Below, in pieces: positions 54,462-58,541 of a stretch of DNA of 64,000 nucleotides. The stretch lies in NCBI GenBank assembly GCA_000018565.1, contig CP000875.1:4541199-4605198 (forward strand), read 5' to 3'. The position numbers and the translations under genes are program-made. Each line of letters opens with the position of its first letter. Position 1 is the first letter of the stretch. This stretch comes from Herpetosiphon aurantiacus DSM 785 (GTDB lineage: Bacteria; Chloroflexota; Chloroflexia; Chloroflexales; Herpetosiphonaceae). The notes below the pieces were generated by a model. The model was not told the origin of the DNA, did not search any database, and saw nothing but the letters and a program-made list of their open reading frames with translations.

Positions 54462-55127
54462 ATGGAAAGTATTAGCGTTTTTTTAGTCGATGATCATTTG
54501 GTTGTTCGCCAAGGCTTGCGCGATTTTCTCGAACTCCAAGATGATATTGAAGTTGTCGGCGATTCGGGAATGCCGGTTGAGGCAGTTGGCCAGATTAAGC
54601 AACTGTTGCCTGATGTGGTGATTATGGATTTGGTGATGCCTGAAATCGACGGGGTAGAAGCCACTCGCCGCGTCAAGGCCGTCAGCCCCACCACTCAAGT
54701 GATTGTTCTGACTTCGTTCTCTGATGATGAAAAAGTCTTTCCGGCAATCAAAGCAGGGGCAATATCCTACCTATTAAAAGATGTTAGCCCGTTGGAATTA
54801 GCGCGGGCTGTGCGTTCCGCCAAACGCGGCGAGGCGGTGTTGCACCCTGAAGTGGCCGCCAAATTGATGCAAGAATTCTCTGCGCCGCGCAACAACGACC
54901 CCGATGCTGAAGCCCTGACCGAGCGCGAAATGGATGTTTTGCGCCTGATCGCCCGCGGTCATTCCAACCGTGAAATTGCCGATTCGCTGATCATCAGTGA
55001 GAAAACTGTCAAAACCCACGTCAGCAACATTTTGTCGAAATTGCACTTAGCGGATCGTACCCAAGCCGCGATTTATGCCCTACGCCAACGCCTCGTCCCC
55101 ATGGATGATCCTTTACCTGGACGCTAG
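54462..55127 (+). CDS. NarL/FixJ-family response regulator
   Basis: A 221-residue two-domain regulator. The receiver domain has the acidic pair DD at 10-11, phosphorylatable Asp56 (VVIMDLVMPE), Thr in VLTSF and Lys in LLKDVSP. The LuxR-type HTH (about 148-210) contains LTEREMDVLRLIARGHSNRE and KTVKTHVSNILSKL. It is a full transcription activator type, but no histidine kinase is adjacent, so it is an orphan. The start at 54462 has GAGG 5 bases upstream; the frame extension to 54408 runs into promoter sequence. A terminator follows. Confidence 0.95.
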   Translation: MESISVFLVDDHLVVRQGLRDFLELQDDIEVVGDSGMPVEAVGQIKQLLPDVVIMDLVMPEIDGVEATRRVKAVSPTTQVIVLTSFSDDEKVFPAIKAGAISYLLKDVSPLELARAVRSAKRGEAVLHPEVAAKLMQEFSAPRNNDPDAEALTEREMDVLRLIARGHSNREIADSLIISEKTVKTHVSNILSKLHLADRTQAAIYALRQRLVPMDDPLPGR

Positions 55128-55138
55128 TTTGGCGCAAG

Positions 55139-55172
55139 CCGCCGCTCAGTTGAGTGGCGGTTTTAGTTTTTT
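55139..55172 (+). terminator. Terminator of the response regulator gene
   Basis: CCGCCGCTCA and TGAGTGGCGG form a 10-bp stem (one G-T) followed by TTTTAGTTTTTT. The T-tract touches the stop codon of the convergent minus-strand gene. Confidence 0.85.
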
Positions 55173-56214
55173 AGGCCGATTTTTCGTTAATTTTTTGCAC
55201 ATCCCACACTATCTTACTCCATCGGCTATAGAATAATTGATACTTCTCGCCTTTGACCAGCTCAAGATAGTGCTGTTGCTTAACTGATACCTTGCCAAGT
55301 TTTTGAAATTTCGCCGTATATTCAACTCCAGGATTGCTATGTCTCTTATCAAAATCGATAAATGTATCGATCGTAGATTCAACCTTTCCTGTAATAAAAT
55401 CGATAACTTGAAATACTATTCCTTTAAATAAATTCAGAAATATAAACAGAATTACAGAAGATACTATAATACCTATAGATGCATTATCAGAATTCCATAA
55501 TAATCTTTTTATATAACTACCTAAAAATAGATAAATTAATATCATAAAAATCACAAAATTCACAATCGATACTATAATTTCTTTACGTTGATTAAGTGAT
55601 AATTGACCTACTCCTTGAACACCCTCATTTGGTGAGTAGGATATTTGTTTTTCGCTTAATACATTATCAAGAACTGCTTGATTCGATTCAAGTTTCACCT
55701 TCCAAAGCTTTTTACTTTTTTGGCTATACATTACTCGATAGAATGATTGCAATTCAACAGTATTATATATTTCTTGATCAACTTGAAAATCACCAAGACG
55801 CTTAAAAAAAGCCATATAGATGATGCTTCCTTTATGACCATAAAACCGATCTACTTTGAGTAATTGGTCCGATTCAACGTACACAACACTATTGACAAGA
55901 TCATGTAAATCTTTATTAAAATATGTAGCAGCAACAATCAAGCCAATCACGATCAACAATGGAATCAACGTAAAATTTTTGGGTGAAACAAGCGTAAAGA
56001 TTCCAATAATTGGCACTAAGGCAAATAATAATGGAAACAAGGCTTTGATGAAATGATACCAGCGTTGTTTGCCGGTCATTGGCATGCTTGGAGCCTGCTT
56101 TGAACGAGGCGTTGCAGGCTTTAATTCAGTTTTTTCGGCTAAATCCGGCCAGCCACAGCGTTCACACGTAGCTTGATTATCAGGAATTTTGGTATAACAA
56201 TTTGGGCAATTCAT
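55171..56214 (-). CDS. Zinc-ribbon membrane protein, two repeat modules (family member 4)
   Basis: A 347-residue member of a four-gene family. An N-terminal zinc ribbon (CPNC...CERC, residues 3-21) is followed by a linker, two membrane helices (about 58-98), a first module (about 118-180: LKVDRFYGHKG, AFFKRLGDF, YRVMYSQKSKKLW), two more helices (about 210-275), and a second module (280-345: AKFQKLGKVSV, YQLFYSRWSKIVW). I do not recognise the module. ATG 56214 matches the MxCP start of its paralogues; ATG 56217 is equally spaced from the AAGGAG. The gene is clearly AT-rich. Confidence 0.8.
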   Translation of the reverse strand: MNCPNCYTKIPDNQATCERCGWPDLAEKTELKPATPRSKQAPSMPMTGKQRWYHFIKALFPLLFALVPIIGIFTLVSPKNFTLIPLLIVIGLIVAATYFNKDLHDLVNSVVYVESDQLLKVDRFYGHKGSIIYMAFFKRLGDFQVDQEIYNTVELQSFYRVMYSQKSKKLWKVKLESNQAVLDNVLSEKQISYSPNEGVQGVGQLSLNQRKEIIVSIVNFVIFMILIYLFLGSYIKRLLWNSDNASIGIIVSSVILFIFLNLFKGIVFQVIDFITGKVESTIDTFIDFDKRHSNPGVEYTAKFQKLGKVSVKQQHYLELVKGEKYQLFYSRWSKIVWDVQKINEKSA

Positions 56215-56268
56215 CATTTTACTCCTTCGCTCATCGCATCAATAATTAGCTTAACCAATAATTTAGGT

Positions 56269-57270
56269 TTAAGAATCGAGTAATTGTGCCTCCCATAACT
56301 TTCTAGTCCATCGACTATACGTAATTTGATATATTTGATTTTCAACCAGATCTATATACTGTTGCTCATTAATATTCAGGCGATTATTGCCTTCAAATAT
56401 TGCATAAAAACGTTTCCCTCTTCGGCCATAGGTAAATTCCACCCGAATCAATCGATCATTGTCAAGCTCATTCGTATTCGAAATCAAATCTAATAGAGCA
56501 AGAACAATCATTCCTAGGTTATAAAAAATAAAGATATATATAATAATTATAAATACATTTAAATCAGATAACGCTAAAGCTGGATTAAAAATAACATATA
56601 TTGGATACAAAGAAACAAGAATACTATGTCTCATCAGCATAAATAATAATTCTTTTCGCTGAATAAATGTTATTTTTCTTTGTTTATCACTTATATTTTC
56701 CTGATGATTTGGTTTTATATCAGAAATTATGTTAGCTGGTTTTTCATCTTCAATTTTCATGCTCCAAACGATTTTACTTCTTGGACTATACTGTATCTGA
56801 TATATTGCTCCTAACTTAGCGTTATCAAACATCTCAGCATCAATTGTCACACAGCCAAGATCTTTAAAGAAACCAAAGTAGTAAGTTCTGCTATTTTGAA
56901 CACGATCAACCCTAATGAGTTGGAATGACTTAATATAGGAATTTCCGTCAATTAATTCATGCAAACTAGAGATTTTATAAATACCAATAATTATAACACC
57001 AATACCTAGCGTAAATACTAACCAATTAAATTGCATTGGTAAAAGAATACCAAAAATAATAATATTTGGTATTGCAAGCAGTAATAACCCAAAAAGGCTA
57101 CTCAGAAAAAGACTCCAACGTTGTTTGCCGTTTAGGGGCACAGTTGTACGACGAACTGAGTTCACCTGGGATTTTGGTGATTGAGTGTTTCTTGGTACAC
57201 CAGGCCCACCACATTTAGGGCAGCGGGTTTCACCTGATGGGAATTTGATATAACAATTTGGACAATACAT
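56269..57270 (-). CDS. Zinc-ribbon membrane protein, two repeat modules (family member 3)
   Basis: A 333-residue paralogue of the gene at 55171-56214 with the same plan: zinc ribbon (CPNC...CPKC), a KQRW motif at the first helix, two membrane helices, module one (about 110-172: FFKDLGCVTID, YQIQYSPRSKIVW), two helices and module two (272-332: AIFEGNNRLNI, YQITYSRWTRKLW). The strongest AT bias of the window lies here, with many ATA and TTA codons. It starts 32 bases after the 104-residue paralogue. Function unknown. Confidence 0.8.
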   Translation of the reverse strand: MYCPNCYIKFPSGETRCPKCGGPGVPRNTQSPKSQVNSVRRTTVPLNGKQRWSLFLSSLFGLLLLAIPNIIIFGILLPMQFNWLVFTLGIGVIIIGIYKISSLHELIDGNSYIKSFQLIRVDRVQNSRTYYFGFFKDLGCVTIDAEMFDNAKLGAIYQIQYSPRSKIVWSMKIEDEKPANIISDIKPNHQENISDKQRKITFIQRKELLFMLMRHSILVSLYPIYVIFNPALALSDLNVFIIIIYIFIFYNLGMIVLALLDLISNTNELDNDRLIRVEFTYGRRGKRFYAIFEGNNRLNINEQQYIDLVENQIYQITYSRWTRKLWEAQLLDS

Positions 57271-57302
57271 AACTCTGTTCCATCGTTCTCACATGCTAGA
57301 AC

Positions 57303-57617
57303 TTACTTTTCGCGTTTACTCCGCCAAAGATCAAAGATTAATCGGCCTATTTTAGCTACTAGATACACGCCAAAAATCGCCATCAGCAGCCAATACAACC
57401 AGCCATATGAGCTGAAAAACCACCAACAGAAAATGAGCATTATTGACCAAGGCACCAAGCCAACCAAAAAGAATTGCCATGCTTGCTTGGCAGTCAATGG
57501 CCGAGAACCTAGCGGAGCAACTACTACCTGTAAGGCTTGTTGATTGATTACAAAACCGCAATTATCACAATTACCAGCGGTGGTTGTAATCGGTGCAGTA
57601 CATTCTGGACATTGCAT
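57303..57617 (-). CDS. Zinc-ribbon membrane protein without repeat module (family member 2)
   Basis: A 104-residue paralogue: zinc ribbon (CPEC...CDNC, residues 3-20), the family motif LTAKQAWQFFL before two membrane helices (about 45-90), and a basic tail. The C-terminal module seen in the other three members is missing, so this is either a minimal member or a shortened copy. The AGGAA upstream of ATG 57617 and the tight spacing support translation. Confidence 0.75.
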   Translation of the reverse strand: MQCPECTAPITTTAGNCDNCGFVINQQALQVVVAPLGSRPLTAKQAWQFFLVGLVPWSIMLIFCWWFFSSYGWLYWLLMAIFGVYLVAKIGRLIFDLWRSKREK

Positions 57618-57638
57618 CGAGATTCCTATTCTGCTGAA

Positions 57639-58343
57639 TTAGCCAAGCTGTTGCATCGCCCACAGCCGTTTGCTACGAGGGCTATAGGTCACTTGGTAAA
57701 TTGCCCCTTGAAAGGCTCCATCGTAGTTTTCGCGGCCAATATTCAAGCGGCCAATTCGTTCGAAATGCCCATAATAGGTTCGGCTATTTTTATTTTTAAC
57801 AACTTGGGTTTTAGTCAAGCGATCAACTTGGACTTGGGCCACGCCACTGAAAAAATCGGCCAAATTCATAATTGCTTGCCAACCCACCACCAAGCCAAAT
57901 AGACCCAAAATAAACCAAAAAAAGCTAATTTCCTCGGAACCCCCCGATCCTCCAATAAACCAAATGGGGATCGCCAAGATGATGAGTGGAAAAAACGCGC
58001 CAAACAGCAATTGGGTCTTTTGGCCACTGGTCAAGGTCACCGTTGTGGGCATGGCGTTGCCCATCATGGTGGCGTTTGGTGGTGGTGCAACGCTTTGCAG
58101 CGGCGCTTGATCCCAGGTCGAGGCTGGCTCAGCAGTTGGTTGCTCCCACGCTGCCGAAGCAGGCATGGTTGGCTCCCAAACCCCAGCATCATTGGTTTGA
58201 TCGCGACCCCAAGCATTGGCGGTTGGCGATTCACCAAAGGCGGCTGAGGAAGTTGCGGCTGCGGGCGCACGTAATGGCCAATCGCAACGCGGGCATTTTT
58301 CAGTGCTATTTGAAACATTGCTATAACAATTTGGGCATTTCAT
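57639..58343 (-). CDS. Zinc-ribbon membrane protein, one repeat module (family member 1)
   Basis: A 234-residue first gene of the four-gene unit. Zinc ribbon (CPNC...CPRC, 3-20), a long Ala/Pro/Trp-rich linker (21-100), the family motif LTSGQKTQLLFG, two membrane helices (about 108-160), then one module (175-232: VQVDRLTKTQ, HFERIGRLNIG, YQVTYSPRSKRLW). Its base composition is closer to the genome average than that of members 3 and 4. The ATG at 58343 has GGAGG 8 bases upstream; the ATG at 58358 overlaps that site. Confidence 0.82.
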   Translation of the reverse strand: MKCPNCYSNVSNSTEKCPRCDWPLRAPAAATSSAAFGESPTANAWGRDQTNDAGVWEPTMPASAAWEQPTAEPASTWDQAPLQSVAPPPNATMMGNAMPTTVTLTSGQKTQLLFGAFFPLIILAIPIWFIGGSGGSEEISFFWFILGLFGLVVGWQAIMNLADFFSGVAQVQVDRLTKTQVVKNKNSRTYYGHFERIGRLNIGRENYDGAFQGAIYQVTYSPRSKRLWAMQQLG

Positions 58344-58467: not shown

Positions 58468-58496
58468 TTGACAGCGCTAATCTGGATTGTTATAAT
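58468..58496 (+). promoter_or_regulatory. Consensus promoter of the chvE operon
   Basis: TTGACA (58468-58473) and TATAAT (58491-58496) are separated by exactly 17 bases, a perfect sigma-70-type promoter. Transcription should begin near 58503, inside the operator array. Confidence 0.9.
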
Positions 58497-58501
58497 GCGA
58501 C

Positions 58502-58541
58502 CGTTATCGATAACGGGATCGATAACGGGATCGATAACGAG
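58502..58541. promoter_or_regulatory. Tandem operator array of the chvE operon
   Basis: CGTTATCGATAACG (58502-58515) is a perfect palindrome. It opens a run of three 12-bp units ATCGATAACGGG, ATCGATAACGGG and ATCGATAACGAG (58506-58541). The site covers the predicted transcription start, as expected for a repressor of the LacI, GntR or ROK type. Its regulator is not in the window. Confidence 0.85.

Follow-up and report, generated by a model that had tools for sequence, protein, structure and literature searches.

Four adjacent genes, here called P4, P3, P2 and P1 in order of transcription, lie on the minus strand of the stretch of Herpetosiphon aurantiacus DSM 785 DNA analysed here (64,000 nucleotides, C1:4541199-4605198, 'the window' below). 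Herpetosiphon aurantiacus is a predatory, filamentous bacterium. The genome of its strain 114-95T has 6,785,430 bases, with a chromosome of 6,346,587 bases (PMC3368417). The initial annotation of the window described four such genes with gaps of 21, 32 and 54 bases between them. The open reading frames are present as it described, and the first two gaps hold, but the third is 51 bases and becomes 54 only when the second ATG of P1 (56214) is taken as the start codon, which yields 347 amino acids. It was also right that these proteins combine a zinc ribbon, membrane helices and a duplicated module, and that the module occurs zero, one, two and two times, the copy numbers from P4 to P1 being 1, 0, 2 and 2 (Table 1). 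The anatomy of the proteins, as described here, is very probably correct.

Table 1. Features of the gene cluster and its immediate surroundings, as positions in the window
Feature	Positions	Strand	Details
LuxR-type response regulator, convergent neighbour, outside family	54462-55127	+	
Terminator-like stem-loop between P1 and LuxR-type gene	55136-55163	.	12-bp stem, T tail in + direction; consensus match only
P1, zinc ribbon and two units	55171-56217	-	ORF, 348 aa, GC 34%
P1 second unit	55195-55602	-	HMM E 1e-34; element order repeated in two-unit model, pLDDT 67
P1 first unit	55693-56079	-	HMM E 5e-40
P2, zinc ribbon and two units	56269-57270	-	ORF, 333 aa, GC 32%
P2 second unit	56284-56670	-	HMM E 5e-35
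P2 first unit	56755-57135	-	HMM E 4e-39
P3, zero-module protein: zinc ribbon, LTAKQ and TM hairpin	57303-57617	-	ORF, 104 aa
P4, one-unit protein: zinc ribbon, Trp-spaced linker and one [2TM-OB] unit	57639-58343	-	ORF, 234 aa
P4 OB-like barrel	57645-57842	-	strands in AF2 unit model
P4 repeat unit (LTSGQK, TM hairpin, OB barrel)	57651-58034	-	HMM E 1e-50; AF2 model pLDDT 91
P4 linker, probably disordered	58035-58283	-	five Trp, spacings 23, 11, 10, 11

The ribbon, the linker and the repeat unit

The M-x-C-P-x-C start that had been pointed out holds, all four proteins beginning with CPxC...CxxC, and the spacing expected of a ribbon, CPxC-x10/11-CxxC, is found in them and in relatives from Herpetosiphonaceae. 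Judged by their sequence, the paired CxxC motifs form a putative zinc ribbon; the best score with the Pfam zinc ribbons (PF13240/PF12773/PF10571) is 20-20.5 bits, under the curated cut-offs of 25-29. In P4, ~83 residues separate ribbon and membrane, and most of them are A, P, S, T, G, Q or N; the Trp residues of this linker number 5-7 in P4 orthologs and 11 in one relative. Random placement gives a Trp spacing like that of P4 with a frequency of 0.005 to 0.0001, for a spacing window that was picked post hoc.

How large is the repeated element? It had been put at ~60 residues, and this has to be revised: iterated HMMs give ~129 amino acids, Q-motif and transmembrane (TM) hairpin included. The order within a unit is LTxxQ(K/R), two membrane helices, the second with an Asp close to its end, and then a five-stranded barrel with the motifs YYxxF..G and YxxxYSxxSKxxW. 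The unit HMM recovers every copy in the cluster, and the relatedness of the five modules passed both shuffling and leave-one-out HMM checks: pairwise alignments have Z of 8-27 with the observed score reached in 0 of 2000 shuffles, and four modules recover the fifth in each case (E 2.4e-15, 4.6e-15, 6e-12, 6e-11 and 6e-11). P3 terminates directly after its hairpin, at the point where a barrel would start, and so looks like the cluster architecture minus the barrel; its similarity to P1 extends from the zinc ribbon to the hairpin start only (28%, E 5e-5). Positions that are nearly invariant are for the most part Q, Y, D, S, W, F or G, and a catalytic residue set is not evident among them.

The supposition that the module was uncatalogued stood. 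Pfam and NCBIfam searches, whether with the unit alignment, the window proteins or their far relatives, gave no matching model and nothing above any cut-off, the Pfam model of DUF3592 (PF12158) has no match at the cluster, and a PDB search by sequence profile gave a match at chance level only (E 1.4). Literature searches yielded no paper joining Herpetosiphon, zinc ribbon and membrane, and for zinc ribbon, OB-fold, Chloroflexi and transmembrane the sole match concerns other systems.

Predicted fold and side of the membrane

Structure prediction of a single unit, that of P4, by AlphaFold2 from an alignment of 26 rows gave a mean pLDDT of 91 and a pTM of 0.77. The model has helices at 8-34 and 41-68, followed by strand-strand-strand-helix-strand-strand (E70-86, E89-96, E100-104, helix, E117-123, E128-135), and this predicted barrel has the strand order of an OB-fold, b1-b2-b3-alpha-b4-b5. 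When both modules of P1 were predicted together the order of elements was seen twice, though at low confidence (pLDDT 67). Foldseek with the unit model gave no match at E <0.001. A second structural pass with VIA-align, from which 50 rows were listed, gave the OB domain of LEF-3 at Z 10.7, 3rd4 at Z 9.6 and numerous OB folds of SSB/PriB (Z 7-8.5), the best compact match being DUF2500 3q6c (Z 10.3, rmsd 1.6 A, 64 residues aligned); there is no NfeD entry among the matches listed, which excludes nothing.

On which side of the membrane would the barrels be? By sequence charge count the turns of the hairpins, of 4-13 residues, have 0-2 K/R, and every other segment has 2-17. Because the turns are short and K/R-poor, the positive-inside rule indicates that the ribbons and all the barrels should face the cytoplasm.

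Turnover in Herpetosiphon and relatives beyond it

Among six Herpetosiphon species genomes the main cluster varies from 3 to 7 genes, with 1-2 further family genes per genome ~10 kb from it. H. aurantiacus and G001 have P4, P3, P2 and P1; G003 has P4, a second P4-like gene and P3, the two-unit genes being absent; H. geysericola has P4, two more one-unit genes, P3, a unit-plus-hairpin gene, P2 and P1, and the remaining two species have that set minus P2. A unit-plus-hairpin homolog (L055 8376-9290) reads, from its sequence, as one full unit and a barrel-less second hairpin (hairpin E 30). P3 is present in all six genomes at 69-81% identity, and P1 is intact in five. Beyond the window, ~10 kb away, a zinc-ribbon/one-unit paralog (L013 6235-6949, minus strand) stands beside a LacI-type gene; in H. 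aurantiacus a difference of one base from G001 splits it, and it has intact relatives in other species.

The old duplications proposed at the outset are borne out by a tree of units, in which P1 and P2 share a clade of first ('a') units (100/99) and a clade of second ('b') units (99/97), so that the two-unit form predates the P1/P2 split and one two-unit gene was duplicated; the long branches of the tree were flagged, and its deep joins are less trustworthy. P4 is under strong purifying selection (dN/dS 0.08-0.16 among orthologs) and the two-unit genes evolve faster (0.31-0.48 for P1/P2). The two-unit genes have a GC content of 32-38% in the species measured versus ~51% for P4, and those of the window (55171-57270) have GC 32-34% and GC3 25-29%, the genome being at ~51%. 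In the cluster P4 forms the conserved core together with P3, and the two-unit genes are variable accessories.

Outside the genus, relatives of P4 were found in 15 of 60 near genomes, and the unit profile has matches in at least 24 of 400 Chloroflexota genomes, a lower bound, the first pass having scored the best candidates alone. Relatives from several other genera have a single unit and are without the zinc ribbon. Weak matches led to a further set of proteins with the motif DLxxNRxGxLsxxQ, then 2TM, then a barrel. Profile matches between the unit and that set have E of 1e-10 to 7e-6 in one direction; in reverse, a profile of four of the DLxxNRxGxLsxxQ proteins found three P4 and the G101 unit (E 3e-7 to 6e-6) and a fourth P4 (E 2e-5), and hhalign of the two profiles gave a probability of 81%. 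Both have a Q-motif, then a TM hairpin, then a barrel. However, the DLxxNRxGxLsxxQ proteins have NRxG ahead of Q, those listed are without the zinc ribbon, and they end near 'YYxPxSxxxLSxE' where the cluster units have 'YSPxSKxxW'; NRxG is absent from the cluster proteins, and the family model matches their orthologs from model position 13. Going by these profile comparisons, the unit belongs to a wider, scattered Chloroflexota family of 2TM plus barrel proteins. Tandem copies in that family occur in other Chloroflexota genomes (L108, L122, L120 and L124), and so the amplification is not unique to Herpetosiphon.

An examination of conserved synteny gave no consistent partner gene: the neighbourhoods of the single-copy relatives differ, and include sugar ABC genes and DNA-repair genes, identities that are a reading of the sequences. 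In one genus of the same order (L049, L051) a single-unit relative is downstream of a prepilin-peptidase-like gene, and in another Chloroflexota genome (L092 2903-6177) a Ser/Thr-kinase-like zinc-ribbon gene is directly ahead of a two-unit relative. In the window itself, 58468-58540 has a 12/12 sigma-70 promoter, TTGACA-17-TATAAT, ahead of sugar-transport genes, and beside it is a repeated GTTATCGAT with the look of a LacI-type operator.

Possible roles and known systems

What might these proteins do? With rather less than even confidence, we favour their being membrane-tethered cytoplasmic adaptors, NfeD-like in their working but not NfeD. Three points put this reading first: the conserved positions have a structural look, a catalytic set is not evident, and NfeD offers a precedent, as a membrane protein that binds flotillin with its cytosolic OB-like domain (PMC11222466). 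The zinc ribbon would be at the N-terminus on the cytoplasmic side, followed by zero, one or two ~129-residue units, each with LTxxQ(K/R), a TM hairpin and an OB-type five-stranded barrel back on the cytoplasmic side. Barrels and ribbon would bind protein partners and may stabilise the complexes of these, much as NfeD acts on flotillin through its OB-like domain. More units would give higher valence, and P4 could gain further repeated contacts from its Trp-spaced linker. OB folds bind many types of ligand, and protein binding here is a choice, not a result.

An alternative that we consider distinctly unlikely has the OB barrels and zinc ribbon as binders of RNA or single-stranded DNA on the cytoplasmic side of the membrane. 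The structural matches include SSB, PriB and LEF-3, and P4-type modules have a net charge of +6 to +8, but the charge of many paralog modules is near neutral (net -1 to +3), the neighbourhoods examined have no recurring DNA or RNA gene, and DUF2500, the closest compact match, is not, to our knowledge, a nucleic-acid binder. Or is there little function to account for? The two-unit genes could be decaying duplicates or AT-rich acquisitions in low-function gene turnover, in keeping with their low GC relative to P4, their higher dN/dS, the absence of both P1 and P2 from G003 and the frameshifted distant paralog; yet their dN/dS is still <1, five genomes have an intact P1, the aromatic positions persist and P4 is left unexplained, and this reading too is unlikely.

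The initial annotation had looked instead to a sensor or a surface-attached assembly, and neither was supported. A membrane sensor that signals to the adjoining LuxR-type regulator, or acts for the arabinose/sugar genes nearby, would fit the place of that regulator beside the cluster, seen in each of the six Herpetosiphon genomes and in one MAG of Herpetosiphonaceae, and the sugar operon that sits between the cluster and the distant paralogs. However, the regulator is convergent, outside the operon and ~3.8 kb off in L044, its linkage being ascribable to general synteny; neither a sensor partner nor a conserved operon was found, the cluster is without a histidine kinase domain, and the hairpin turns are too short for a ligand domain, all of which makes a sensor improbable. 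A surface-attached or extracytoplasmic assembly, which membrane helices and a repeated module could call to mind, is highly improbable, as both the positive-inside pattern of loop charges and the cysteine zinc ribbon point to the cytoplasm.

A broader and rather doubtful proposal is that units of [TM hairpin + cytoplasmic OB barrel] make up a Chloroflexota superfamily that has gone unrecognised. Herpetosiphon would have added the zinc ribbon and the Trp-periodic linker, and tandem amplification would have produced multivalent scaffolds for the organisation of complexes on the inner face of the membrane, possibly with orphan SPFH proteins. Though the value of the present analysis is mainly in annotation and hypotheses, with the role inferred, it defines a domain unit that is missing from Pfam and NCBIfam, with a predicted fold and membrane side, and links a genus-level gene cluster to a family in scattered lineages of Chloroflexota. 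The tandem arrangement of hairpin plus OB barrel, with a copy number that varies between close species, is a testable case of valence gain in membrane adaptors.

Several known systems bear comparison. TcaA-like zinc-ribbon membrane proteins also have an N-terminal ribbon ahead of a membrane helix and gave weak ribbon matches, but the match is confined to the ribbon region, 18 of 550 bits and far under the cut-off. The N-terminal domain of ComEC, DUF4131 (PF13567), has membrane helices and an OB-type domain, as does the unit, and a few unit relatives have weak sub-threshold matches to it (best E 0.0012); the cluster family, however, is without the competence channel downstream in the chain. With NfeD (PF01957) the likeness is in a cytoplasmic OB-like domain on a membrane protein (PMC11222466). 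Membership of the NfeD family itself was considered and rejected, the Pfam NfeD model having no match in the cluster. By Pfam search the H. aurantiacus genome has a single NfeD match (C1:1726938), beside its own SPFH gene, and six Band_7 matches, none at the cluster and five of them additional to the SPFH partner of NfeD. DUF2500 (PF10694, E. coli YhhM) has a compact barrel of equal strand order behind a membrane segment, but YhhM has one membrane helix and is without zinc ribbon or repeats. Its Pfam model has no match in the 400 Chloroflexota genomes, host included, and hhalign with the unit gave a probability of 1.6%, the DUF2500 profile being a shallow one of 4 sequences; the modelled unit thus resembles DUF2500 in barrel structure with no detected relation in sequence. 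Set beside these systems, the cluster proteins are predicted to be a kind of membrane-anchored OB-fold protein that the libraries searched had yet to catalogue.
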